A DNA stretch of 39,916 nt from contig DATKAB010000025.1 of assembly GCA_035498555.1 (NCBI GenBank), positions 1 to 39,916 on the forward strand, written 5' to 3'. The notes under the pieces are model-generated. The model saw nothing but the letters and a program-made list of their open reading frames with translations, searched no databases and was not told where the DNA came from. The position numbers and the translations under genes are program-made. How positions within the stretch are numbered: position 1 is the first letter of the stretch; every line of letters starts with the position of its first letter. This DNA comes from Candidatus Sulfotelmatobacter sp. (GTDB taxonomy: Bacteria > Eisenbacteria > RBG-16-71-46). Of this stretch, positions 5,674 to 39,916 are shown one piece after another.

Positions 5674-6264
5674 GTGCCGGGGATCAAGCTGCGCTGCGAG
5701 CCTCTCACTCCCGATCGCTGGGACGATCTCGTCGAGCTGTTCGGGCCGCGGGGCGCGTGCGCGGGTTGCTGGTGCATGTGGCCGCGGCGCACGACCGGCG
5801 AGGGCAAGACCTCCGGCGAGCCCAATCGACGAGCATTTCGGAAGCTCGTCATGGATGGGCCGCCGCCCGGATTGCTCGGCTACCGGGACGGCGAGCCGAT
5901 CGGCTGGGTGGCGATCGCGCCGCGGCGCGAGTACAAGCGCTTCGAGCGCTCGCGCATCCTCCAGCCGGTGGACGATCAGGAAGTGTGGGCGGTGCCCTGC
6001 TTCTTCGTGGCGCGTGGGGCTCGCAAGCAGGGCGTGACCAAGGCGCTGCTGGCCGCGGCCTGCGAGTGGGCGAAGCGGCGGGGCGCGCGCCTCATCGAGG
6101 GCTACCCGGTGGACGCGCGCGGCAAGGAGTACGCGCCCGCCTTCGCATGGCACGGATTGGTGGGCACCTTCGAAGCCGCTGGCTTTCGCGAGGTCGCGCG
6201 CCGCTCGAAGCGCCGGCCGATCATGCGGCGCGCGGTGCGCGGAGGGCGCTCGGGCCGTGGCTGA
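5674..6264 (+). CDS. GNAT-family N-acetyltransferase in the molybdopterin synthase cluster
   Basis: A 196-residue protein of a GNAT subfamily recognisable by an early Cys/Trp motif, here GACAGCWCMWPRR. The acetyl-CoA motif region is VPCFFVARGARKQGVTKALL, followed by the helix EWAKRRGARLIEGYP and a GFREVARRSKRRPIMRR tail. GTG 5674 is preferred because GGAGG at 5663-5667 is 6 nt upstream; GTG 5668 overlaps the moaD stop (GTGA) but lies right against that site. The 3' end overlaps the moaE start by 8 nt. The substrate is unknown. Position between moaD and moaE suggests co-expression with molybdenum cofactor synthesis, but GNAT genes of this type also occur alone, so a cofactor role is unproven. 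Confidence 0.85.
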   Translation: MPGIKLRCEPLTPDRWDDLVELFGPRGACAGCWCMWPRRTTGEGKTSGEPNRRAFRKLVMDGPPPGLLGYRDGEPIGWVAIAPRREYKRFERSRILQPVDDQEVWAVPCFFVARGARKQGVTKALLAAACEWAKRRGARLIEGYPVDARGKEYAPAFAWHGLVGTFEAAGFREVARRSKRRPIMRRAVRGGRSGRG

Positions 6265-6682
6265 GCTGGTGACGGCCCCGATCGGTCTCGACGCGGTGTT
6301 GAGCCGCGCGAGGCGTCCCGATTGCGGGGCGGTGGCGCTCTTCCTCGGCACCACGCGCGATCACCATCAGGGACGGCGCGTGCTGCGGCTCGCCTACGAA
6401 GCCTACGAGGCCATGGCGCTGCGCGCGCTCGAGGAGCTCGAGCGGCAGACTCTGGCGCGCCACGAGGTCGCCACCTGCGTGATCGTCCATCGCCTCGGCG
6501 AGGTGCCGCTCGGCGAGGCGAGCGTGGCGGTGGCGGTGGGCGCCGCGCACCGTGGGCCAGCGTTTGAAGCCTGCCGCTGGGCGATGGACGAGCTGAAGCG
6601 CACGGTGCCGATCTGGAAGAAGGAGTTCTACGCCGGGGGCGGCGAAGGCTGGGTCGAGGGAACCCGGCTTCACCGGGACTAG
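6257..6682 (+). CDS. moaE: Molybdopterin synthase catalytic subunit (MoaE)
   Basis: A 141-residue MoaE. With MoaD it forms the heterotetramer that inserts the dithiolene sulfurs into cPMP to make molybdopterin. Recognisable blocks are GAVALFLGTTRDHHQGR, LAYEAYEAMA, VIVHRLGEVPLGEASV, a central HRGPAFEACRWAMDELK and the catalytic KRTVPIWKKE (Lys114 and Lys121 match in spacing the two active-site lysines of the E. coli enzyme). GTG 6257 overlaps the end of the acetyltransferase gene by 8 nt. It ends the three-gene unit; a weak hairpin follows. Confidence 0.9.
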   Translation: MAELVTAPIGLDAVLSRARRPDCGAVALFLGTTRDHHQGRRVLRLAYEAYEAMALRALEELERQTLARHEVATCVIVHRLGEVPLGEASVAVAVGAAHRGPAFEACRWAMDELKRTVPIWKKEFYAGGGEGWVEGTRLHRD

Positions 6683-6713
6683 GTACGGTCACGTCCTCGC
6701 GGCCGGCTTTCCG

Positions 6714-6728
6714 CCCGGTATCGCCGGG
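6714..6728 (+). terminator. Weak hairpin after moaE
   Basis: CCCGG (6714-6718) and CCGGG (6724-6728) form a 5-bp stem with a 5-nt loop, followed by TTT, 32 nt after the moaE stop. Flanking GGCCG and CGGCC could lengthen it with bulges. It is short for a terminator, so confidence is low. The remaining bases to 6856 show no clear promoter motif for the receptor gene. Confidence 0.35.
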
Positions 6729-6856
6729 TTTCGGCCACGCTAACTCCAGCGGTTTCAGCCCGCTCCCGGCGATCCTTCGAGCGATGAACTTTCTTCCATC
6801 ACAGTGTAAGCTGCGGCCGACCTTTCGTGCCCTGCCCTCCTCACTTCCCGGACCTC

Positions 6857-9634
6857 ATGCCCCTTCGCCTGCGTGGCTTCCTCCTCACGTTGCTGCTCGT
6901 GGGCGTCTGCCTGAGCTCACCCGGCCTGGCTCAGGAGAAGAGCACGATCTCGGGGAAGGTCACGGACAAGAAGACCGGGCACGCCCTGCCCTTCGCGACC
7001 ATCACGGTGGTGGGCGCCCAGCGGGGAGCGCTCTCCGACGCCGAAGGCCAATTCGTAGTGTCGGGAGTTCCGGTCGGCACCTGGGAAGTGCGCGTCCAGT
7101 ACCTGGGTTATGGCCCGCAGTCGCGTCCCGGCGTCGTGGTCGCCGCCGGAAAGCCGACTCCGGTGGATTTCCAGCTCGAGGAAATCGTCGTCCACCAGGA
7201 AAAGGTCGTCGAGGTGACGGCCGAGCGGCAGTTGGTCGAGGTGAAGCAGGCGGCCACGGTTCGCAGCGTCTCCGCCAAGGAGATTCGCAACCTCCCCGTG
7301 ACCACCGTCGGCGACGTGCTCCAGCAGCAGGCCGGCATCAGCACCGATGCCGAACAGATTCACGTGCGTGGGGGCAGAGCCGACGAGACCATTTTCATGG
7401 TCAACGGGGTCGCGAACCGCGACCTGGTGACCGGGCAATCCACCGCCGGGCAGATGAACGCTCGATCGGTCTCGGAGGTCAACGTTTCGACCGGCGCGTA
7501 CGACGTCAAGTACGGGAACGCGCTCTCGGGCGTGGTCGACATCAAGCTCAAGGAAGGCACCGACAAATTCGAGGGCGGCCTGACCATGGGCGGTGGCAGC
7601 TACGGCCAGCGCAACTGGCAGTTGATCGCGGGTGGACCCGATCCGCTCTGGGCGCGCCTGCTCGACATGCTGCACATGAGGCCCCCCGGCAGCATGGCCG
7701 CGATTCTCGACCTGTCGGGCTCGACCTACGACACGCGCTACGTCGCCTACATCCCCGGCAGCATCCCGCGCCTCAAGTCGAGCTACGAGGATTCGTTCTT
7801 CGGCATTCCCTTTCACTACTCGGACATGTGGGCACCGACGGAAGACAACCGCTGGGCGGCCCGCTACGGCCTCAACTGGAAGCCCAACAGCAGCGACAAG
7901 CTCAGCTTCAACTTCTCCAAGCGCATCGCCATCGATCAGGGGTTCAGCCGCACGATCCTGACCGCCAACGGTGATCTCGGCGATCCGGCCTTCCCCTGGC
8001 TCTGGGCGCACCGAATCGATCACGCCTCGACCTTTTTCGAGGACAACGTCCAGTCGTCGCTGCTGTGGCGCAGAACCCTGTCGGTCAGCGGCTATACCGA
8101 GTTGCAGGTCGCGCACTACTTCTTCGCCCAGCGCCAGGACGTCGGCGGCAAGATGTGGGCCGACGCCAATGGCAACCTGCAGTACGTCGCGCCCGACGAC
8201 GAAAGCTACTTCCCCAAGGGCGATCCGCGCCGCGACGATGCGTTCTACGACAGCGGCGACAACTACCAGTGGTCCGATCGGCGTACCTCGAGCTGGGGAC
8301 TGACGTGGGGCTATACCCAGCGTCTGCACCACAACGAGCTCGAAGCCGGGCTCGAGCACCAGTTCCAGACCGTCCAGTACGTCGACATCGAATACCCGTG
8401 GGTTTACGACCCCAGTGGACTCGGACAATCCCACGATCTGTGGTCGGTGCACCCCTGGGTGGGCGACGCCTATCTGCGCGACCGTCTCGAGTACGAGGGA
8501 TTCGTGGCCAACATCGGGGCGCGACTCGACTACTGGATGGTGGGCCGCGAAGCGGAAAGCGCCATGGCCGACACCACCCGGCACAACATTCCAATCAGCG
8601 AGCGCAACAGCTTCTACACCGACACCTATTCATTCTACGGCCGCCGCACCAAGGTGCACGTCTCGCCGCGCATCATGGTGGCGCATCCGATCACCGAGAA
8701 CAGCAGCTTCTTCTTCAACTACGGCGAATTCACGCAAATCCCGTCCTACCGGTACGTCTATTCGAAGCTCGGATCGATCTCGAGCGAGTCGTTCCCGTTG
8801 CAAGGCAACCCCAATCTCAACCCGCAGGTCTCGGTGAATCACGAGATCGGAGCCAAGGACCAGTTCCTGCCCAACGCGGCGGCCAATCTGACCTTCTTCG
8901 TTCGTGATGTTTACGACTATCCGAGCGCCAATCTGGTGACCCCGCTCACCGGTACCAACCTGCAGGCCTACTTCGTCTACCTGAACGGACATTTTTCGCG
9001 TTCCAAAGGGGTCGAGGTCGAGGTCGAGAAACGGCCTTCGAACAACTGGTCGGCGAAGCTCAGCTATTCCTACCAGCAGACCAAGGGAAAGAGTGGCGAT
9101 CCGAACCAGGACACGGCCCTGCAGGAAATCGGCGGGGCCGCGCTCACCCGGCTCTCGCAGGTGTTCGTGGCCTGGAATCGACCGCACAAGCTGACGGCGA
9201 ACCTCGACCTTCGATTCAACGACACGCCTCCCAAGGATTTCGAGTTCCTGCGCCGGACCGGCTTCAACGTCTACGTGCAGGGCACCTCGGGACGCGCCTA
9301 TACGCCCTACGACATCAACGATCAGAACCCGATCGGCCTGCCCTACTCGCAGAACGCCCCATTTCAGATCACGACCGACGTCAAGCTCGATCGCTGGTTC
9401 CGGGTGTTTGGAACGCGATGCGATATCAGCCTTCAGGGACTCAACATCTTCAACAACTATCTGATCTACCGCGTCGATCCGGTCACCGGGCGCGGCTACG
9501 TCTGGGGGCAGGGCGCGTTCGATCCCAACTACGTGCACGGACTCAACGAGACCGTGCGCACCGCGACCGTGGACGACCCTTCGAACTACGGGCCGGGCGC
9601 CGAGTGGAGATTGCAGATTGATTTCGATCTCTGA
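6857..9634 (+). CDS. TonB-dependent outer-membrane receptor with carboxypeptidase-like N-domain
   Basis: A 925-residue outer-membrane protein. ATG 6857 gives MPLRLRGFLLTLLLVGV and a signal peptide ending SPGLAQ; earlier starts (GTG 6827) only extend the signal. Next comes a carboxypeptidase-regulatory-like beta-sandwich (ISGKVTDKKTGHALPFATI, YLGYGPQS), then a TonB plug (LPVTTVGDVLQQQAGI, IHVRGGRADETIFMVNGV, YDVKYGNALSGVVDIKLK). From about residue 250 on it is a 22-strand-type barrel rich in Tyr, Trp and Asn, with NPNLNPQVSVNHEIGA, typical of the receptor barrel. No SusD partner follows. It is the first gene of a five-gene operon; the next start lies inside its 3' end. The ligand is unknown. 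Confidence 0.92.
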   Translation: MPLRLRGFLLTLLLVGVCLSSPGLAQEKSTISGKVTDKKTGHALPFATITVVGAQRGALSDAEGQFVVSGVPVGTWEVRVQYLGYGPQSRPGVVVAAGKPTPVDFQLEEIVVHQEKVVEVTAERQLVEVKQAATVRSVSAKEIRNLPVTTVGDVLQQQAGISTDAEQIHVRGGRADETIFMVNGVANRDLVTGQSTAGQMNARSVSEVNVSTGAYDVKYGNALSGVVDIKLKEGTDKFEGGLTMGGGSYGQRNWQLIAGGPDPLWARLLDMLHMRPPGSMAAILDLSGSTYDTRYVAYIPGSIPRLKSSYEDSFFGIPFHYSDMWAPTEDNRWAARYGLNWKPNSSDKLSFNFSKRIAIDQGFSRTILTANGDLGDPAFPWLWAHRIDHASTFFEDNVQSSLLWRRTLSVSGYTELQVAHYFFAQRQDVGGKMWADANGNLQYVAPDDESYFPKGDPRRDDAFYDSGDNYQWSDRRTSSWGLTWGYTQRLHHNELEAGLEHQFQTVQYVDIEYPWVYDPSGLGQSHDLWSVHPWVGDAYLRDRLEYEGFVANIGARLDYWMVGREAESAMADTTRHNIPISERNSFYTDTYSFYGRRTKVHVSPRIMVAHPITENSSFFFNYGEFTQIPSYRYVYSKLGSISSESFPLQGNPNLNPQVSVNHEIGAKDQFLPNAAANLTFFVRDVYDYPSANLVTPLTGTNLQAYFVYLNGHFSRSKGVEVEVEKRPSNNWSAKLSYSYQQTKGKSGDPNQDTALQEIGGAALTRLSQVFVAWNRPHKLTANLDLRFNDTPPKDFEFLRRTGFNVYVQGTSGRAYTPYDINDQNPIGLPYSQNAPFQITTDVKLDRWFRVFGTRCDISLQGLNIFNNYLIYRVDPVTGRGYVWGQGAFDPNYVHGLNETVRTATVDDPSNYGPGAEWRLQIDFDL

Positions 9635-10640
9635 TCCTTCGCGGCGCCGCGCGCGGTGGTCAGGGGTGGCGCTCGCGGTCGCGCTGCTGCCGGCCGGCTG
9701 GTCGTCCGCGAACGCGCAGGCGCTGGGGAGCCAGCGCGAGGGAACCGCGTCGGGAAGCTTCCTCCGCATCGGCGTCGGCGCGCGCGCGGTGGGCATGGGG
9801 GAGACGTTCGTGGCGGTCGCGAACGACCCCAGCGCGGTCTACTGGAATCCGGCCGGGCTCGCTTCGCTTCAGCGCCAGGAAATCCAGGCCTCTCACGTCG
9901 ACTGGCCGGCGGACGTTCACTATGACCATCTCACGCTGGTCATTCCCAGCCGGCGGCTCGGCGGCTCGATCGGCATCCAGCTCGGCGTACTGGGCACGCG
10001 CATCGACGAAACCACCGAGCTCGCGCCGTTCGGGACCGGCCGCGAATTCTCCTACAGCGATCTGGTCACCGGCATTGCCTACGCCCGCCGCTGGACCGAC
10101 AAGCTGCTGGTCGGCGCCGGTCTCAAGTACGTCCGGGAGGACCTGGGCTCGCAGGTGGGAGGCGCCGTGACCAACGCGGTCCTCTACGACGTGGGCTCGA
10201 TCTTCTATCTCGGGCTCGGAAGCATTCGGATCGCGACCGCGCTCACCAACTTCGGGTCCGAGTTGAAGCCGTCCGGCACCTACACTTCGCCCTACAGCGG
10301 CGAGGTGCGCTCCTATGATGGCTTCGATCCGCCGATGACGTTCCGCTACGGGCTGGCGTTCGAGCCGCTCGAGAACTCGAGCCAGCGAGTGACGACGTCG
10401 TTCGAGGTCACCCAGCCGGCCGACAACCAGCAGGAGATCAAGTTCGGACTCGAATGGGGCTACCGGAAGTTCTTCGCGCTGCGTACCGGATACAACGCCA
10501 ACGCCGATCTCATGAAGTTCAGCGCCGGCGCCGGATTCGACGCGGACTTCGCTTCGATGAAGGGCTCGCTCGACTACGCCTACACGGATGCCGGCATCCT
10601 CGGCGCCGTGCAGAGGTTGTCGCTGGGGCTCCGGTTCTGA
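9618..10640 (+). CDS. PorV/PorQ-family outer-membrane beta-barrel protein
   Basis: A 340-residue FadL-like barrel of the PorV/PorQ (UPF0164) family. After a signal ending SANAQA comes the diagnostic GSFLRIGVGARAVGMGETFV and VANDPSAVYWNPAGLA, then alternating amphipathic strands to the C-terminal QRLSLGLRF with terminal Phe, as for barrel proteins. In Bacteroidetes PorV is the shuttle of the type IX secretion system; more distant members have unknown roles. TTG 9618 is chosen because GGAGA at 9606-9610 lies 7 nt upstream, inside the receptor gene, giving a 17-nt overlap; GTG 9666 is an alternative. Its TGA overlaps the ATG of the next gene, implying translational coupling. Confidence 0.88.
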   Translation: MISISDPSRRRARWSGVALAVALLPAGWSSANAQALGSQREGTASGSFLRIGVGARAVGMGETFVAVANDPSAVYWNPAGLASLQRQEIQASHVDWPADVHYDHLTLVIPSRRLGGSIGIQLGVLGTRIDETTELAPFGTGREFSYSDLVTGIAYARRWTDKLLVGAGLKYVREDLGSQVGGAVTNAVLYDVGSIFYLGLGSIRIATALTNFGSELKPSGTYTSPYSGEVRSYDGFDPPMTFRYGLAFEPLENSSQRVTTSFEVTQPADNQQEIKFGLEWGYRKFFALRTGYNANADLMKFSAGAGFDADFASMKGSLDYAYTDAGILGAVQRLSLGLRF

Positions 10641-11821
10641 TGCGTCGCGCGTTCGCCATCCTGCTGATGCTCGGAGTCTGGGCGGCCATGGGCTGTGGGG
10701 GCAACTACAAGCTCCCCACCGAGACGCATGCGGCCCGCGTGATCCCGACCGACAAGAGCTACCAGATGCTCGCGACCTGGAAGAACCTGAACGGCATCCG
10801 CGACATCCTGCTGATCCCGCCGCCGGGCGTCGAGATGTTCTTCCTGTTCAACTACGGGGGCACCGGAAGCCCCTCGGTTCCGCGCGGCGAGGTCAGGCGC
10901 TACCCGCTCACTCAGCCCAATCCCATCGGCGCCCCGGCGTTTCAGCCGCCGCGGACCCTGTTCAACCCGGTCGCGCTGACTTCCGCGGTGAATCTGATCT
11001 TCGTGCTCGACGAGGGAGATTCGTGCCAGGCCAAGTTCGATCCCAGTCGCGGGACCTGCGAGGCCGACACGCTGCGCCACGGACAACAGAGCATCATCTT
11101 CGACTACACCGCGACCTGGCGGGTCCGCGAGTACCCGCTCACCGGCGGCGATACGCTCTCCACGTTCACCGACACGACCTTCGCCTACGTGAATGGAATC
11201 GCGGCCGACATCTTCGGCAACGTCTACGTGTCGGGAATCGCGGTGATTCTCGATACGCTGACGACCGATCAGCGCATCCGCACCCGGAAGTTCATCTCCC
11301 GGATCTATCGCTACGCTCGCGGGCCGCGCTACCCAGGGGTGGTGCCGGACGACATCAACATGCCGGGCGCCAGTTGGCACCGCGACACCACCTGGCTGGC
11401 GCACGATGGCACCGGAAGCTCGTCGGTGATCGACCCGCGCGGCATCGACTGGTCGCCGCTCTATGGCGGCTCCCTGTTCATCGCGGATCGTGGGAACAAC
11501 AAGGCCAAGCTGATCGGCACCGGGATGCCGAATTACGGCATCACCTCGATGGACGGCAGCGAGACCCCGACCGGCACCAGCTTCAGCGGGCCGCAGGGGG
11601 TGGCGGTGGATAACGGCGGGTCCCTGTTCGTCGTGGACCGGTTCAACCAGCGCGTGCTGCGTTACGACGCGTCGGGCCAGTACCTCCAGGTCGTCAACGT
11701 CGAGAGGAATTCCGACGACCTCCCCCTGCTGGATCCGATCGCGATCGGTGTGCTCGACTCTCTTGCCTATGTCGCTGATGCGGGTCGCGGCCAGGTCATT
11801 CGATACCAGAGGCGTCCATGA
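10640..11821 (+). CDS. NHL-repeat / beta-propeller lipoprotein
   Basis: A 393-residue lipoprotein. The signal MRRAFAILLMLGVWAAMGC gives Cys19 as the lipidation site. The body reads like a six-bladed propeller of the NHL / SMP-30 type: WSPLYGGSLFIADRGNNKAK, GPQGVAVDNGGSLFVVDRFN and LDSLAYVADAGRGQVIRYQ are successive blades, and NGIAADIFGNVYVSG is an earlier one. The start overlaps the preceding TGA (ATGA-like TGATG), and the end overlaps the next ATG in the same way. This kind of propeller usually binds proteins or ligands without catalysis. As part of the receptor/barrel operon it is probably an outer-membrane-attached partner; the side of the membrane is not shown by the sequence. Confidence 0.82.
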   Translation: MRRAFAILLMLGVWAAMGCGGNYKLPTETHAARVIPTDKSYQMLATWKNLNGIRDILLIPPPGVEMFFLFNYGGTGSPSVPRGEVRRYPLTQPNPIGAPAFQPPRTLFNPVALTSAVNLIFVLDEGDSCQAKFDPSRGTCEADTLRHGQQSIIFDYTATWRVREYPLTGGDTLSTFTDTTFAYVNGIAADIFGNVYVSGIAVILDTLTTDQRIRTRKFISRIYRYARGPRYPGVVPDDINMPGASWHRDTTWLAHDGTGSSSVIDPRGIDWSPLYGGSLFIADRGNNKAKLIGTGMPNYGITSMDGSETPTGTSFSGPQGVAVDNGGSLFVVDRFNQRVLRYDASGQYLQVVNVERNSDDLPLLDPIAIGVLDSLAYVADAGRGQVIRYQRRP

Positions 11822-33160: not shown

Positions 33161-33724
33161 ATGCCGCCGACACCTGTCGCGATGAGTTGGCCGGAGTACT
33201 ACGTCAGCTGGCACGAGTTCTATCTCATGGCGGGAACCGCGGCGGTCACGCTGGCCGGCCTGCTGTTCGTTTCGCTCTCGCTTCACATCGAGGCGTTGAT
33301 CCACGAAACGCACGAGCACCTGCTGCAGCTGGCGCGCATCGTCCTGTTCTCGTTCCTGGCCGTGCTGCTGCTCTCGCTGGTGATGCTGGTCCCGGCCGAG
33401 ACCATGCGTATCACCTCGGTGGAGATGATCATCCTGGGCGGCGGCTTCCTGCTGCTGACGCGCGCCCAGCTGCGCTGGAGGCCGAAGGTCCAGCACTCCG
33501 GTTTCACCCTCCAGCAGGTGCGCCGGCGCACGATTCTGCCGATGCTCGGCTACAGCCTGATGGCGCTCACCGGCGCGCTGACGCTGGCGACGAAAGACCA
33601 GCTGATGATGAATCTCGCCATCAGCTCGGTCGGCATGCTGCTGGGGAACGCGCTGGGCGCTTCGTGGGACCTGCTGGTGCGGGTGGCGCGCATCAAGCGC
33701 GAGGACGCCCGACAGGAATCGTAG
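33161..33724 (+). CDS. Four-helix membrane protein of unknown function
   Basis: A 187-residue integral membrane protein with four likely helices: FYLMAGTAAVTLAGLLFVSL, LARIVLFSFLAVLLLSLVML, SVEMIILGGGFLLLTRAQL (marginal) and MLGYSLMALTGALTLAT, followed by a further hydrophobic stretch MNLAISSVGMLLGNALGASW and a basic tail. I do not recognise the family. ATG 33161 or ATG 33182 (MSWPEYYVSW) could be the start; the latter is attractive because it begins just at the conserved-looking part. It lies 20 nt after the HD-domain gene. Confidence 0.7.
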   Translation: MPPTPVAMSWPEYYVSWHEFYLMAGTAAVTLAGLLFVSLSLHIEALIHETHEHLLQLARIVLFSFLAVLLLSLVMLVPAETMRITSVEMIILGGGFLLLTRAQLRWRPKVQHSGFTLQQVRRRTILPMLGYSLMALTGALTLATKDQLMMNLAISSVGMLLGNALGASWDLLVRVARIKREDARQES

Positions 33725-33994: not shown

Positions 33995-36900
33995 TCAAGT
34001 CTTGACCTCCGGATGCCGCGCTCGGGCCCGCACCGCGGCGCGATGAGCGCTGATGCCGTTGGGCGCGCGCGGCGTTTCGCGTGGGGAGAGGCCGGCCGCG
34101 CCTTCGGCGGATCTTCCGGCAACCTGCTCGCGCCGCCACGCGTGCGGCGCCGGCGACGGCGCTGAGCCATCGAGCGCGATCACGCGCTCGACGTTGAGCG
34201 TGACGGCGTCGAGCGCCTCTTCGACGCGCCCCTCGAGCCGCACCACGCTGGCTCGGGCCGCCGGCCCCCATGCGCGATAGGCCGAGGTGAACAGGGTGCC
34301 CTCGGCGAGCCCGCTCGCGTCGGCGATGGTCGCGAACAGCATCGGCTCGCCGCGCCTGGTCTCGACCCGGCGATAGGCGCAGGTGAGCCCGACCAGCGCC
34401 ACGCGCTCGCCGACGCGCCGCGGCAGCTCGGCGCACGCGACCGCGCCGCGCCGCGCCGCTTCGAGCTCGGGTGAATCGAGCGGATGGGCGCTGAACCACA
34501 GTCCGGTCGCGCGCGCCTCGCCGCGCGCCCGCTCGAAGCGATCGAATTCCGGCAGCGACGGCACCGGCGCCGGCGCGACCGGGGGCGGCGCCAGCTCGTC
34601 GCCGCCGGGCACCACGAGCACCGGCGTGCGTGGCGCGAGACGCGCCACGGCCGGCGCGCTCACGCGGGCTTCGAGCAGCAACGTCGGCCGCGAACGCCCG
34701 AGCGCATCGAGCGCTCCGGCCAGGATCAACGACTCGACTTCGGGCGGCGTGGGCCGCACGCGTTCGAGGAAGTCGGCGAGGTTCGAGAAGCGCCGCTCTG
34801 CCCGCGCGTGCAGGATCCGCGCTCCGGTGGTCTCGGCGAGCCCGAACACGCGCGACAGTCCGACGCGCACGGCGCGAGCCGAGACGCGAGCGGCGGCGGG
34901 CCTCGCGTCCAGAGACTCCGCCGCCGCGCCCTCCGGTGCGGGGTCCGCGGCATCCTCCAGGGTCGCGTCCCACTGCGAGCGCTCGACGCACGGGGCGAGG
35001 AAGCCCACGCCGGCGCGGCGCAGGTCCTCGACGTGCACCCAGGTCGGATACATGCCGGCGTGGTGATTGAGGATCCCGACCGCGTATTCGACCGGGAAGT
35101 GCGTCTTGAGATACGCGCTCTGCCACCCGAGCACGCCGTAGCCGGCCGCGTGCGCCTTGCAGAACGCGTAGGCCGCGAAGCGGGTCAGCTCGCACCACAC
35201 CGCGCGCGCGGTCGCGCCGTCGACGCCGGCGCGCGCCGCCTGCGCCACGAAGCCGCGCTCGAGTGCCCGGAACTCCTCGTCGCCGCGCGCCGCGGCAATC
35301 GCGCGACGCAGCTCGTCGCCGGCGGCCAGCGGCAACCCGGTGAGCGCGGCGGCGACGCGCATCACGTCCTCTTCGTAGAGCATCACGCCGAGCGTGTCGG
35401 ACAGCACCGGCTCGAGCCGCGGGTGGAGACATGACACGGCTTCGAGCCCGCGCCGGCGACGGCAGTAGGCGGTCTTCATGCCGGACTCGGCCGGCCCGGG
35501 ACGCACGAGCGCCACCGCCGCGATGGTGTCGTCGAGCGTTCGGCAGCCGAGCATGCGCAGCAGATGGCGCATGGCCGGCGACTCGAGCTGGAAGCAGTTG
35601 AGCGTGTCGCCGGCGGCGAGCCGCGCGGCGGTGGCGGGATCGTCTTCGGGGATCGTGTCGAGCGAGAGCAGTGTCGGCGGGACGGCGGAGCCGGAGGCCG
35701 ACCGGGAGGTACGGTTGCCGGCTCCATCCGGTCGCCGGCTGCCCTCGCCGCGCCCAGCGCCGGACATCCCTGTCCGGCTTCTCCTCGGCGCGGAGCCCTC
35801 CCGGTCGGCCTCCCGCTCCGCCGCCCCGGCCGCCCGCCGGGTCACCAGCTCGACGCACTCGCCGAGGGTGCTCAGGCAGCGGTTGCCGAGCAGATCCATC
35901 TTCACCAGCCCGAGCGCTTCGATCGCGCGCATCTCGAACTGCGTCACCACCAGGTTCTTGGCGGCGCGCTCGAGCGGCACGTAGTAGGTGAGCTCGCGGT
36001 CGGCGATCACCAGGCCGCCCGAATGCACCGAGAGATGCCGGGGCGCGCCCGACAGGCGCTCGGCGAGCTTCAGCGCCTCGGGCAGCGGCGCTTCGCGCCA
36101 GTCGACGAAGCGCGCGTCGGGTGTCGCCAGCAGCTGATCGAGGTACGGCGGCTCCATCTCGCGCGGCACGCGGCGCGCGAGGGCGTTGACGCGCGGGTTG
36201 GAGAGCCCCAGCGCCTTGGCGGTCTCGCGGAACGCCGAGCGGGCACCGAGCGTCGAGTGCGTGCAGATCATCGCCACGCGGTCGTGGCCGTAGGTGTCGT
36301 AGACGTGCTCGATCACCTCGTCGCGCCGCTTCCAGCACAGATCGATGTCGAGATCGGGGCAGTCGCGCCGCGCCGGGTGCAGGAAGCGCTCGAAGTAGAG
36401 CCCGTAGCGCATCGGGTCGACGTTGGTGATGCCGAGTGCGTAGGCGACGAGCGAGCTGGCGCCCGACCCGCGCCCGACGGTCGGAATGTTCTTCGACCGC
36501 GCGTACCCGACGATCTCGGCGACCAGCAGGAAATAGTCGGTGAAGCCCATCCGTTCGATGATCTCGAGCTCTTCGCCGAGGCGCGGTCGCGCGTCGTGAT
36601 AGCGGCGGCGTGAGCCGGCGTCGGCGCCGGTCGCCCGCACGCCGTAGCGGCGGCGCAGTCCCTCGGTGACGAGGCGCTCGAGATGGGCTGTTCCTGTCAT
36701 GCCGTCCGGCAGCGGCGCCCGCGGGAGGATCGGCGTGCCGAGCTCGAGCTCGAGCCGGCAGCGTGCGACCAGCGCCACGTTGTTCGCGAGCGCGGCGGTG
36801 GCGGCTTCGGGTCGCCCGGCCGCCCCGCACACCGCGCGCACGCGGCGCGTCCACTCGAGCGGCGAAGCCAGCCACGCTTCACGCGCCGCGAACGCCGCCG

Positions 36901-37585
36901 GCGGCATGCGCTCGCGCAGCTCGCCGGCCGCGGCGGTCACAGCGATCGCGTGCAGCTCGTGATCGCGCGGCTCGATCGCCACCACGTCGCCGGTCGCCAC
37001 CAGCGGAATGCCGAGCGCGATCGCGGCATCGAGCCGCTCGGCGAGCCGCGTGCGTTCCGCCGGCAGGCCGCGGATGCCGAGCCACAGCCCGCCGTCGCGC
37101 GGGCGCGGGCCCGACCCGGGCCCGGCGGGCGCCGCGCCGAACGCCGCCGGCACGCCCGCCGCCTGAAGCGAGGCGGCGAGCCCCGGCGATTCGACGATCA
37201 GGTGGAGCCCGGCGTGGAATTGCGCGAGCCCGGCGACCAGGTCGAATTCCGGATCGAGCATGCGCGCGGTGATCAGCGCGCACAGGTTGGCGTAGCCGCG
37301 CCGATCGATGGCGAGCAGCAGCGCGCCCGGGCCCGTGCCGGCGGCCGCGCCACCGCGGGCGCCCTGGGCGGCGCGCGCCGAGAGCTCGACGCCGAGCAGC
37401 GGTTTCAGTCCCTCGGTGTGCGCCGCGCGCCAGAAGCGGATCGCGAGGTAGAGATTGTCGCGGTCGGTGAGCGCGAGCGAGTCGTAGCCCTGCTCGAGCG
37501 CCCGGGCGATCAGCGCCTCGGGCGCCGCGGTGCCATACAGCAGCGAGCCGTGCGAGCGGACGCGCAGCGGAACGAAGGCGCTCAC
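33995..37585 (-). CDS. DnaE-type DNA polymerase III alpha subunit, probably error-prone
   Basis: A 1196-residue C-family polymerase. The catalytic aspartates are present: PDLDIDLCWKRRDEV (Asp413, Asp415) and LVKMDLLGN (Asp564). Other family blocks are FQLESPAMRHLL, ALVRPGPAESGMK, MLYEEDVMRVAAALTG and FAAYAFCKAHAAGYG. The C-terminal OB region is VALVGLTCAYRRVETRRG. The N-terminal PHP domain is degenerate: LRVRSHGSLLYGT replaces the usual HxH and LTDRDNLY replaces TDHGN. This suggests a second, translesion-type DnaE rather than the replicative one, in line with the Y-family polymerase gene upstream on the same strand. About residues 587-636 are a low-complexity insert encoded by an inverted-repeat element (35678-35828). 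GTG 37585 has GGAG 6 nt upstream. Confidence 0.9.
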   Translation of the reverse strand: MSAFVPLRVRSHGSLLYGTAAPEALIARALEQGYDSLALTDRDNLYLAIRFWRAAHTEGLKPLLGVELSARAAQGARGGAAAGTGPGALLLAIDRRGYANLCALITARMLDPEFDLVAGLAQFHAGLHLIVESPGLAASLQAAGVPAAFGAAPAGPGSGPRPRDGGLWLGIRGLPAERTRLAERLDAAIALGIPLVATGDVVAIEPRDHELHAIAVTAAAGELRERMPPAAFAAREAWLASPLEWTRRVRAVCGAAGRPEAATAALANNVALVARCRLELELGTPILPRAPLPDGMTGTAHLERLVTEGLRRRYGVRATGADAGSRRRYHDARPRLGEELEIIERMGFTDYFLLVAEIVGYARSKNIPTVGRGSGASSLVAYALGITNVDPMRYGLYFERFLHPARRDCPDLDIDLCWKRRDEVIEHVYDTYGHDRVAMICTHSTLGARSAFRETAKALGLSNPRVNALARRVPREMEPPYLDQLLATPDARFVDWREAPLPEALKLAERLSGAPRHLSVHSGGLVIADRELTYYVPLERAAKNLVVTQFEMRAIEALGLVKMDLLGNRCLSTLGECVELVTRRAAGAAEREADREGSAPRRSRTGMSGAGRGEGSRRPDGAGNRTSRSASGSAVPPTLLSLDTIPEDDPATAARLAAGDTLNCFQLESPAMRHLLRMLGCRTLDDTIAAVALVRPGPAESGMKTAYCRRRRGLEAVSCLHPRLEPVLSDTLGVMLYEEDVMRVAAALTGLPLAAGDELRRAIAAARGDEEFRALERGFVAQAARAGVDGATARAVWCELTRFAAYAFCKAHAAGYGVLGWQSAYLKTHFPVEYAVGILNHHAGMYPTWVHVEDLRRAGVGFLAPCVERSQWDATLEDAADPAPEGAAAESLDARPAAARVSARAVRVGLSRVFGLAETTGARILHARAERRFSNLADFLERVRPTPPEVESLILAGALDALGRSRPTLLLEARVSAPAVARLAPRTPVLVVPGGDELAPPPVAPAPVPSLPEFDRFERARGEARATGLWFSAHPLDSPELEAARRGAVACAELPRRVGERVALVGLTCAYRRVETRRGEPMLFATIADASGLAEGTLFTSAYRAWGPAARASVVRLEGRVEEALDAVTLNVERVIALDGSAPSPAPHAWRREQVAGRSAEGAAGLSPRETPRAPNGISAHRAAVRARARHPEVKT
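35678..35828. repeat. Palindromic insertion-like element inside the DnaE gene
   Basis: Inverted repeats 35684-35709 and 35797-35822 match over 26 nt with one mismatch (35692/35814). Pairing continues outward through 35678/35828 with one more mismatch. An internal perfect 8-bp hairpin, GCCGGACA-TCCC-TGTCCGGC, lies at 35759-35778. The sequence between the repeats is unlike the family consensus when translated (arginine, serine, glycine-rich). The unit 35683-35823 is 141 nt, so it adds 47 codons without shifting the frame. No second copy was seen in the window. It resembles palindromic elements tolerated in proteins elsewhere (for example Rickettsia RPEs), but no relationship is claimed. Confidence 0.75.
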
Positions 37586-37610
37586 GCGGCGCTCCGCGGC
37601 GCGCGCGACG

Positions 37611-38309
37611 TCAGCCGGCGGGGTGGGGGCCGAAGCTCGGCAGCGACTCGCGGCCGCTGGAGCGCAGCATCACGTGCGGCAGCACGCCGGCCTCGAAGTA
37701 CTCGGGGCGCAGGATGCGATCGAGCAGGCGCTGGCCCCACAGTTCCTGATCGGGCGTCAGCTCGGGATCGTCGCCGGCGAAACGGAAGGTGCAGACCGCG
37801 AGATCCGCGCCCTCCATCCAGCCCACCACCAGGCACTGGTTGGTGCCGTCGCTGTCGGCGATGCGCACCCACAGGATCGCCAGATCGAAATCGCCGAGAT
37901 GGCGGTGCGATTCGCGCGACACCTGTGGATCGTCGAAGCCCATCGCCTGGCGCAGCGCCAGCTCGGGCGGCGTGCTGGGCGGGAAGCGGTTGCTCACCAT
38001 CGCCGCGTTCGGCACGACGAGCATCGGCGGCGCGAACGCGGGCTCCTGCGCGAGCGCGAAGCACAGCGCTTCGGCGCGATGCCGCGGCTGAAGCAACGGC
38101 GCTCGCCGCCCGAGCAGATCGAGGCCGAGCAGCACGATCAGCACGGCGAACACGAACGGCGCCGCCACCAGCGCCACCTGCAGCGCCGGCCCGAACGAGC
38201 GCTGCACGCGCCGCTCGACGGCTCCGGCGGTGACCGGCGAGGTGAACAGCCGCACCAGCAACGGCGGGCGCCGCGGCGGGGAGGGCGCGGGCGAGACCGG
38301 CGGACTCAT
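37611..38309 (-). CDS. Single-helix membrane protein of unknown function
   Basis: A 232-residue protein with a proline-rich cytoplasmic N-terminus (MSPPVSPAPSPPRRPP), one strong helix (PALQVALVAAPFVFAVLIVLLGLDLLG) and a C-terminal soluble domain containing FDLAILWVRIADSDGTNQCL and VVGWMEGADLAVCTFRFAGD. I recognise no family. It is 25 nt upstream of the DnaE gene and presumably co-transcribed. An alternative, overlapping open frame on the same strand is arginine/alanine-rich and looks like shadow. The call rests on amino-acid composition and position. Confidence 0.65.
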   Translation of the reverse strand: MSPPVSPAPSPPRRPPLLVRLFTSPVTAGAVERRVQRSFGPALQVALVAAPFVFAVLIVLLGLDLLGRRAPLLQPRHRAEALCFALAQEPAFAPPMLVVPNAAMVSNRFPPSTPPELALRQAMGFDDPQVSRESHRHLGDFDLAILWVRIADSDGTNQCLVVGWMEGADLAVCTFRFAGDDPELTPDQELWGQRLLDRILRPEYFEAGVLPHVMLRSSGRESLPSFGPHPAG

Positions 38310-38369
38310 GGTCTTCCGTTATCGGCAGGATGCGCACGGGCCGTGAGAGCTGCTCGTTCGAGCCCCGTG

Positions 38370-38387
38370 GCGGGCGCCCACGCCCGC
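38370..38387 (-). terminator. Hairpin downstream of the VOC gene
   Basis: A 7-bp stem, GCGGGCG (38370-38376) with CGCCCGC (38381-38387), loop CCCA, lies 15 nt past the VOC stop on the minus strand, without a T-tract. It may limit read-through into the membrane-protein and DnaE genes. Confidence 0.35.
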
Positions 38388-38402
38388 TCACCCGCCGCAT
38401 GC

Positions 38403-38759
38403 TCACTTCTCCTCGATCAGGCCGATCGTGTTGCCGGACGGGTCGAGCACCTCGGCCACCCGCGTGCCCTCGCCAACCCCCATCGGCGCCTGCTTCGGCT
38501 TCGCGCCGATCGAGAGCATCCGCGACCACTCGGCGTCGAGATCGGCGACTTTCCAGTACGACACGCCGCCCTTGTCTCCCACACGATGCTTGTCATCCTC
38601 GGGATGGATGCCGAGCTCGAAGCCGTCGACGTCGAAGCCGACGTAGAACGGCTCGTCGAAGTAGGGCTGGATCCCGAGCCACTCGGAATACCAGCGCCTG
38701 GCGCTCGCGAGGTCGCTGACCGGATAGATCGCGCTGCGAAGTCGAAGGCGATGGGGCAT
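38403..38759 (-). CDS. VOC-superfamily (glyoxalase/dioxygenase-like) protein
   Basis: A 118-residue protein of the vicinal-oxygen-chelate fold: RLRSAIYPVSDLASARRWYS and the WLGIQPYFDEPFYVGFDVDG first half, then GVSYWKVADLDAEWSRMLSI, VAEVLDPSGNTIGLIEEK as the second beta-alpha-beta-beta-beta unit. Single-domain VOC proteins act as dimers in glyoxalase, antibiotic-resistance or dioxygenase reactions; which applies here is unknown. AGGAG lies 6 nt before ATG 38759. It lies between the Y-family polymerase and the DnaE genes, an unusual location for a small metabolic enzyme. Confidence 0.87.
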   Translation of the reverse strand: MPHRLRLRSAIYPVSDLASARRWYSEWLGIQPYFDEPFYVGFDVDGFELGIHPEDDKHRVGDKGGVSYWKVADLDAEWSRMLSIGAKPKQAPMGVGEGTRVAEVLDPSGNTIGLIEEK

Positions 38760-38821
38760 GACGAGCTCCTTTCGATGGTGAACGCGGCCGGTGCCGCGGA
38801 TCGAACGCCGCTTCCGCGGCG

Positions 38822-39916
38822 CTACTTGGTCAACGACGGGGTGCGCAGCACGAAACCATGGCGATCCTCGGTGAGCCTGCCCTTGAGATGGAGCGCGCGG
38901 CCCGAGACCAGCACGCCGTGGCCGTAGGCGCCACGCACGCGATCGAAGGCGCGGTAGAGCGCGGCGCGGCGGCCGGCCTCGCGCTCGTCGAAGAGTGCCC
39001 CCTGCTCGCCCGACGCCGGCACGAAGTTGGAGAGCGTGATGCCCAGCGCATGCAGCGCCACGCGCCGCGTGAACAGCTTGCGCATCAGCGCGAGCGCCGT
39101 CTCGAGCACCACCGGATCGGCTTCCGACGGCGAGCGCAGCGAGCGTTCCTGCTCGGCGCCCTCGCCGTCCTGGTAGCGCAGCCGCACGCCGATGGTGCGC
39201 GCCTTGAGGCCGAGCTCGCGCGCGGCGTGGCAGGCGCGACCGACCAGGTACTCGATCATGCCGTCGAGCACCGTGGCTTCGGCGGTGTCGCGGTGGAACG
39301 AGGTCTCGCGCGAGATCGAGAGCGGAATCTCGCGCACCGTGACCGGCGCCGTGTCGCGCCCGCGGCAGCGCTCGTAGAGCAGGCGGCCGGCCACGCCGAA
39401 CAGCGCCTCGAGCGTTTCGACCGGCAGGGCGCGCAGCGCGCCGATGGTGAGCAGGTTCATCGAGCGCAGCGTCTTCGCGTGCGCGTGGCCGACGCCGGCG
39501 AGCTGCTCGATCGGCCGCTCGCACAGGAAGGCGTCGGCGTCTTCGGCCGCGATCCGCGCGAGGCCGGCGGGCTTCACGGTCTTGCCGATCAGCTTCGCCA
39601 GCATGCGATTCGGGCCGATGCCGCAGGTCACGGTGAGCCCGGTCTCTTCGCGGATCGCTTCTTTCAGCGCGCGCGCCGCCGCCATCACGTCGCCGTGCAG
39701 GCGCTCGGTGCCCGAGAGATCGCAATAGGCTTCGTCGAGATAGGTCTCTACCGCCGGCGAAAGATCGCGGCAGTGCGCGAAAATCACCTCGGCAAAGCAA
39801 CGATAGATCTGTGCGTGGCCATCGAGGATCACGGCCTGAGGGCAGCGGCGCTTCGCTTCGGTGAGCGTCATGCCGGCCTTGAGCCCGAAGCGGCGCGCCT
39901 CGTACGAACACGACGC
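38822..39916 (-). CDS. dinB: Y-family DNA polymerase (DinB / Pol IV-like), 5' end cut by window
   Basis: A translesion polymerase reading from the window edge: SCSYEARRFGLKAGMTLTEA is the normal continuation of the missing fingers/palm start, so the true N-terminus (with the first catalytic Asp) lies beyond 39916. Present are YLDEAYCDLSG with the Asp-Glu catalytic pair, CGIGPNRMLAKLIGKTVKPAG, LAGVGHAHAKTLRSM (helix-hairpin-helix) and the little-finger region starting REIPLSISRETSFHRD. Near the C-terminus QGALFDE fits a beta-clamp-binding pentapeptide (QxxLF). About 364 residues are visible. It precedes the VOC, membrane-protein and DnaE genes on the same strand. Confidence 0.92.
   Translation of the reverse strand, partial: ASCSYEARRFGLKAGMTLTEAKRRCPQAVILDGHAQIYRCFAEVIFAHCRDLSPAVETYLDEAYCDLSGTERLHGDVMAAARALKEAIREETGLTVTCGIGPNRMLAKLIGKTVKPAGLARIAAEDADAFLCERPIEQLAGVGHAHAKTLRSMNLLTIGALRALPVETLEALFGVAGRLLYERCRGRDTAPVTVREIPLSISRETSFHRDTAEATVLDGMIEYLVGRACHAARELGLKARTIGVRLRYQDGEGAEQERSLRSPSEADPVVLETALALMRKLFTRRVALHALGITLSNFVPASGEQGALFDEREAGRRAALYRAFDRVRGAYGHGVLVSGRALHLKGRLTEDRHGFVLRTPSLTK

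Follow-up and report, generated by a model that had tools for sequence, protein, structure and literature searches.

The window analysed here, a stretch of 39,916 bases from Candidatus Sulfotelmatobacter sp. (Candidatus Eisenbacteria), carries on its minus strand a gene for a Y-family DNA polymerase (polY) and, downstream of it, a dnaE gene for a second C-family DNA polymerase. Judging from the sequences and from their conservation in related genomes, the locus is very probably the downstream part of a LexA-controlled error-prone operon with the order imuB-C – polY – (VOC, membrane protein) – dnaE2B, the products of which would make up an SOS-controlled DnaE2B-PolY-ImuB-C-RecA mutasome.

The window is the entire contig C25 of a 3.82 Mb draft genome (219 contigs, estimated completeness 100%). 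The relatives compared with it are metagenome-assembled genomes of Candidatus Eisenbacteria: 12 loci whose DnaE is 53-70% identical to the window DnaE, and a set of 47 genomes of the phylum, 20 of which, the window's own included, constitute its family. A DnaE match is present in all 47. Most of these genomes are draft assemblies; where a contig breaks off within a gene or immediately ahead of it, the module was treated as untestable for that gene and left out of the count. Family counts are based on the genome set alone, several of the separately retrieved loci being identical contigs.

A second DnaE with a degenerate PHP site

The window DnaE contains the Pfam domains PHP, DNA_pol3_alpha, finger and HHH_6 and passes the NCBIfam superfamily model TIGR00594. 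Nine solved structures match it at E up to 1e-10, each of them a Pol III alpha subunit. Residues of the PHP and polymerase sites were read from an alignment of this protein with 36 other C-family proteins (37 rows). At the nine PHP ligand positions the window DnaE reads P R Y R E G S D V, with two of the nine ligands (Glu and Asp) kept, whereas the other DnaE of the same genome, encoded on contig C81, shows the perfect signature H H D H E H C D H, which is the consensus taken for an active PHP site in the available part of PMC12926913. In DnaE2 proteins the PHP ligand positions are little conserved, according to the available part of PMC3919608.

These residues confirm the second-type DnaE with a degenerate PHP domain that a first-pass annotation had recognised in the window. 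Both histidines of the HxH motif are lost, as that annotation held; the R-V-R that it put in their place came from a shifted reading, the aligned residues being Pro and Arg, that is, P-L-R. It had read the change of the TDHGN histidine to Arg (TDH to TDR) correctly, and the polymerase aspartates that it found intact are kept at four of four positions, and are present in 37/37 aligned DnaEs.

No clamp-binding motif was recognised in the window DnaE by pattern or by alignment, whereas the C81 DnaE carries QSSLF. Because it combines this motif with an intact PHP site, the C81 enzyme is the likely replicase. The window DnaE is therefore not the only DnaE of its genome, which supports the earlier proposal of a damage-tolerance pair following the logic of imuB-dnaE2.

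The window DnaE groups with DnaEs that follow Y-family genes

Three maximum-likelihood trees of 37, 68 and 24 rows were computed with a quick method and Shimodaira-Hasegawa-like approximate likelihood ratio test (SH-aLRT) support, with neither bootstrap nor PolC outgroup. In all of them the group of the window DnaE clusters with two sets of dnaEs, those located downstream of dinB on Bacteroidota plasmids and those preceded by an inactive polY, with SH-aLRT values of 99 (37 rows), 100 (68 rows) and 99 (24 rows). The Bacteroidota members beside the window DnaE are plasmid DnaEs of Emticicia, Adhaeribacter, Chryseobacterium and Persicobacter; the dnaEs following an inactive Y-family gene come from Desulfosarcina and, in the 68- and 24-row trees, also from family f11 of the window's class. 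DnaE1 and the ImuB-linked DnaE2A form two other groups. Forcing the window group together with DnaE1 in the 24-row tree costs 52.5 log-likelihood units (approximately unbiased test, p-AU 0.000106), and forcing it together with DnaE2A likewise costs 52.5 units (p-AU 0.000131); both unions are rejected. In the phylogeny that the first-pass annotation had called for, the window DnaE thus belongs to a DnaE2B-like group distinct from both DnaE1 and DnaE2A. We equate this group with the DnaE2B of PMC12926913 on the strength of its partners, which are those that the available part of that paper describes; the label comes from this description, and the paper's own sequences lie outside our trees.

A second DnaE of another kind is found in family f8 (G013, G014 and G015; loci L129, L130 and L131), where it branches beside DnaE1 and is neither DnaE2A nor of the window type; no polY was detected nearby.

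PolY is probably active and carries clamp- and RecA-type motifs

The window polY is incomplete because the gene runs off the end of the contig. The Asp-Glu pair of its LDEAYCD motif is present, and the position of the N-terminal catalytic Asp falls off the contig. The genome has three IMS genes, two of which read DD/DE at the catalytic positions, the window's showing DE with the remainder off the contig. Because these residues are kept (DD/DE) in 12/12 full-length polYs of the family, PolY is probably an active polymerase, unlike ImuB. Outside the family, DD/DE is found in 3/5 polYs, and in family f11 the polY active site is broken (AD/GR) in 5/5 testable genomes.

The first-pass annotation had noted a same-strand Y-family polymerase with a QGALF pentapeptide, and both are there: QGALF-like motifs occur in the tail of the window polY and in most polY tails of the family. 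For the RecA-NT motif, which is described, along with its proposed binding to RecA, in the available parts of PMC6511836 and PMC12926913, successive blocks of a profile built from 19 polYs were compared by hhalign with 21 RecA N-termini from related genomes. The block covering the polY tail matched with 88-91% probability, and the 22 other blocks reached at most 2.1%.

The recA gene itself is unusual in the window's own genome. At C55:28567-30330 (L152, L171) it contains an in-frame, intein-like insert of ~350 aa that starts with CFHYDTRVELADG and ends with VDGVAVHN before S. recA is split near the same place in G025, G028 and G034, perhaps also in G033 and G035; an unbroken recA domain is found in 17/27 genomes with a recA match.

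The order of polY and dnaE is conserved

A window-type DnaE is present in 18/20 family genomes and is listed for neither G027 nor G029; in the latter, a fragment of imuB-C – polY sits at the edge of a contig. In two of the 18 (G024 and G035) dnaE lies at the very start of the contig or is cut by it, and polY is untestable. In all 16 testable family modules polY lies upstream of dnaE on the same strand, the two frames being ~3.5 kb apart in G023, with a VOC homologue between them. Outside the family, within the window's sub-clade, polY is upstream in 5/6 testable genomes (G018, G017, G004, G007 and G009). In G008 there is, at a contig edge, only a below-threshold hint of a polY tail, and G010 is untestable for polY.

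A small ImuB-C-like gene precedes polY in relatives

In relatives an 84-aa gene lies upstream of polY. A hidden Markov model (HMM) built from six such proteins finds it in 10/12 testable family modules (G020, G021, G022, G025, G028, G030, G031, G034, G036 and G037) and in 5/5 testable modules outside the family; it is untestable in the window's own module, where this part is off the contig, and in G023, G032 and G033. The protein matches Pfam DUF6504 at 24.8 bits (cut-off 24.2). The same family matches residues 430-501 of a Geminicoccaceae ImuB (27.3 bits), one of three ImuBs tried, those of Sphingobium and Streptomyces giving no DUF6504 match at E up to 0.1. In the literature searched we found no mention of DUF6504. 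The link between the small protein and ImuB-C rests on intermediates, as direct comparison is weak (see below): five stronger DUF6504 proteins of the phylum (five of the eight strongest were used and three dropped) match the small proteins with 77.9% probability (E 1.8e-5) and two ImuB C-termini with 92.0% (E 6.7e-7; hhalign). A structural model from five sequences, of modest quality (mean predicted local distance difference test score 71.5, predicted template-modelling score 0.64), has six strands and gave no match in the PDB at E up to 0.001. This agrees with the available part of PMC12926913, in which no close structure was found for ImuB-C, and proves nothing.

The genome of the window contains a further imuB-C – polY pair, at C181:2700-4281 (L047), preceded by the same LexA-like palindrome that is described below. 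Its small protein scores 24.0 bits with DUF6504, just below the cut-off, and no dnaE was found in 12 kb around the pair.

A LexA-box-like palindrome stands before the module in relatives

The window's own promoter is off the contig, and the LexA box that the first-pass annotation had suggested looking for was sought, and found, in relatives: upstream of polY these have the small ImuB-C-like gene preceded by a palindrome or by lexA itself. The palindromes upstream of imuB-C resemble TACTGCACN4GTGCAGTA. TGCACN4GTGCA precedes the first gene in 10/11 family modules with full upstream sequence (in G019 it stands before polY); the eleventh, G026, has GGCACN4GTGCC, and the core GCACN4GTGC is common to 11/11. 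Half a box is visible at a contig edge in G022, and the imuB-C – polY fragment of G029 also carries the palindrome. The 20 family genomes together contain TGCACN4GTGCA 103 times and the reversed control 31 times; in one of them, G024, the control is the more frequent (7 against 5).

The same palindrome precedes lexA in 19/19 family genomes in which lexA was found (9 by sequence, 10 by coordinates); no clear lexA was found in G035. In G004, G007, G009 and G017 lexA ends directly upstream of imuB-C, its product having Peptidase_S24 and LexA_DNA_bind domains in 4/4. Fibrobacter LexA binds a TGCNCN4GTGCA motif. No paper stating the Fibrobacter motif was found in the literature searched, which included the available parts of PMC3091678 and PMC8565304, nor was one found that names both Eisenbacteria and LexA.

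A proposed mutasome and its alternatives

In the mechanism that we propose, RecA filaments would cleave LexA and thereby turn the operon on. PolY would bind the sliding clamp via QGALF and a RecA subunit via its RecA-NT tail, and the standalone ImuB-C barrel would connect PolY with DnaE2B, its docking site there probably being the PHP domain. AlphaFold models in the available part of PMC12926913 show the ImuB-C barrel bound to the PHP domain of DnaE2, and such docking would explain why the PHP fold has been kept after loss of the metal site. As that site is lost, proofreading would be lost as well; PolY and DnaE2B would share insertion and extension across lesions, with mutagenic lesion bypass as the expected outcome. 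We infer that PolY, DnaE2B, ImuB-C and RecA form one complex in which RecA probably stands in for ImuA, and that the window's own operon starts, off the contig, with imuB-C and a LexA box. A single ImuA query had no match, and the same query also had none at two DnaE2A control loci. In a bolder version, which we regard as speculative and rather doubtful, this would be a mutasome of two active polymerases outside Actinobacteria in which the split ImuB-C clamps the metal-less PHP domain to RecA-bound PolY and the VOC protein is an added working subunit, not a passenger.

Several observations weigh against the mutasome reading. The 5' end of the window's own operon lies beyond the contig. The 84-aa gene was not found in G019 and G026 within the ~1.4 and ~2.2 kb that their contigs hold, and it may be dispensable, being absent from the findings in 2/12 testable family modules; when 15 small proteins were compared directly with two ImuBs, the C-terminal block came first of 15, yet with 3.8% probability (E 0.011). 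A plain HMM of RecA N-termini scored polY tails no higher than shuffled copies, and the palindrome core is absent within 300 bases upstream of 21 recA genes. G005 has a window-type DnaE but no polY; the polYs of G007 and G009, outside the family, read DD/DD rather than DD/DE; the polY of G030 is interrupted by an internal stop, and dnaE is in two frames in G020 and G007. In the 68-row tree, Streptomyces plasmid DnaEs, one of them beside a Y-family gene, form a long branch with an unresolved fork on the side of DnaE2A, which does not fit one simple DnaE2B clade. Finally, the NCBIfam replicative model gives the window DnaE 676 bits (cut-off 1002) and the error-prone model 595 (cut-off 939); the protein passes neither, and the replicative model scores higher.

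Some of these points bear on particular alternatives. Both polymerases might be induced by damage and work independently, their adjacency serving co-expression only and the ImuB-C-like protein serving PolY alone. We think this unlikely. In its favour, the pair on C181, which shares the palindrome and has no visible dnaE neighbour, implies that the small protein and PolY need no DnaE2B, and the small gene was missed in two of the testable dnaE2B modules. The constant position of polY upstream of dnaE2B in the 16 testable family modules, the recurrence of such pairs on Bacteroidota plasmids and the AlphaFold models of ImuB-C on the DnaE2 PHP domain speak against it.

It is very improbable that the window encodes a replicative DnaE, or a DnaE3-like partner of the replicase, whose PHP proofreading has been lost. 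The NCBIfam scores lean that way, and the DnaE1s of E. coli and Rhodobacter also lack an intact PHP site; yet the perfect signature and the QSSLF motif of the C81 DnaE, the clamp motif not being recognised in the window DnaE, the rejected union with DnaE1 and the LexA-box-like palindrome of the relatives' modules all point elsewhere, and we reject a role as the replicative or only DnaE. Hardly credible, too, is a decaying locus in which a truncated polY sits beside a drifting DnaE. The cut polY, the degenerate PHP site, the split dnaE frames and the polY stop could suggest it, but the cut is the end of the assembly, the frames and the stop may be errors of draft assemblies, and the polymerase aspartates of the aligned DnaEs, the active sites of all full-length family polYs and the gene order have been maintained.

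Relation to known systems

The closest known system to the proposed mutasome is the DnaE2B-PolY-[ImuB-C]-RecA module, the fourth DnaE2B group in the available part of PMC12926913, with Tessaracoccus lapidicaptus as an example; the likeness is drawn from the description given there, not from the sequences of that paper. It differs in that the module described here belongs to Candidatus Eisenbacteria and class-level relatives, and its polymerase genes are often separated by those for a VOC and a membrane protein. The available part of that paper (Timinskas et al. 2026) places the DnaE2-[ImuB-C]-PolY-RecA composition only in Actinobacteria, and its main text, as far as available, makes no mention of Eisenbacteria; we would therefore describe the locus as a known kind of system in a phylum for which no report was found. 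An adjacent active polY and second DnaE, and the grouping of the DnaEs, are shared with the DnaE2B-PolY-RecA system of Bacteroidetes (Cellulophaga algicola; available parts of PMC6511836 and PMC12926913), whereas five Bacteroidota plasmid loci, unlike the window's relatives, have no ImuB-C-like gene recognised by the six-protein HMM. On the Emticicia and Adhaeribacter plasmids the dinB-dnaE pair lies near an SOS-response-associated peptidase gene, and on the Chryseobacterium plasmid the pair and a LexA-family gene are divergently oriented (L051, L052, L062). At locus L113 (G005:C11; frames 5749-6888 and 8309-11533) a window-type dnaE has upstream of it the gene for a DUF6504 protein (67.6 bits), with no polY between them; this resembles the ImuB-C-only DnaE2B group of Arthrobacter alpinus in the available part of PMC12926913.

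With ImuA-ImuB-DnaE2 the module shares a DnaE2, a Y-family protein with clamp- and RecA-type-binding motifs and an ImuB-C domain, under LexA. It is distinguished by ImuB being split into an apparently active PolY and a separate 84-aa ImuB-C-like protein and by a DnaE outside the DnaE2A group (p-AU as above). As the family keeps the PolY active-site residues, the ImuB-C-like domain is a gene of its own and union with DnaE2A is rejected, we do not consider the locus a canonical ImuA-ImuB-DnaE2 system. DnaE1 is of the same polymerase family, with the same domains and active-site aspartates; the window DnaE is unlike it in its lost PHP ligands, the clamp motif not being recognised, its separate branch and its operon context.

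That this module occurs in a candidate phylum and is associated there with a LexA box or with lexA itself points to a wider distribution of split-ImuB mutasomes and to their control by the SOS response. With a dnaE-free pair and a dnaE2B-linked polY in one genome, and inactive-polY versions in another family of the class, the steps from a PolY-RecA enzyme to ImuA-ImuB-DnaE2 can be compared among relatives, and TGCACN4GTGCA offers a testable LexA box for the lineage.

Gene layout and neighbouring genes

The four genes polY, VOC, the 232-aa protein and dnaE follow one another with gaps of 62, 93 and 25 bases (Table 1).

Table 1. Positions of the polymerase genes, their motifs and the genes between them in the window.
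Feature	Coordinates	Strand	Remarks
dnaE2B-like gene	33995..37585	-	1196 aa, GTG start; second C-family polymerase, degenerate PHP site, polymerase aspartates intact
PHP match in DnaE (residues 7-114)	37244..37567	-	Pfam
232-aa protein, single hydrophobic stretch (by eye)	37611..38309	-	between polY and dnaE
VOC/glyoxalase-fold protein	38403..38759	-	Pfam; between polY and dnaE
polY, Y-family DNA polymerase, N-terminus cut off by contig end	38822..39916	-	IMS 100.6 bits, IMS_C 65.6 bits
RecA-NT-like motif of polY, EAGRRAALYRAFDRVRGAYGHGVLVS	38903..38980	-	matches 21 RecA N-termini in a profile-profile comparison
QGALF, clamp-binding-like pentapeptide of polY	38990..39004	-	QxxLF motif type (PMC12926913, available part)

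The VOC protein and the protein with one hydrophobic stretch lie between the polymerases as the first-pass annotation had it; the latter matches no Pfam or NCBIfam family. As judged by tblastn, 8/16 family modules have a VOC homologue between polY and dnaE and 5/16 a homologue of the 232-aa protein, the window included in both counts; 9/16 have one or both and 7/16 neither. Being recurrent yet not constant, the two proteins are accessory or passengers. We also rejected an anti-phage defence locus, PADLOC giving no match for three locus proteins, and a viral origin: seven stretches fitted short polY patterns and none of them encoded a relative. Convergent with dnaE2B, at 33161-33724 on the plus strand, the window encodes a 187-aa protein without Pfam or NCBIfam match, which has homologues in four other loci searched (L097, L099, L103 and L107).

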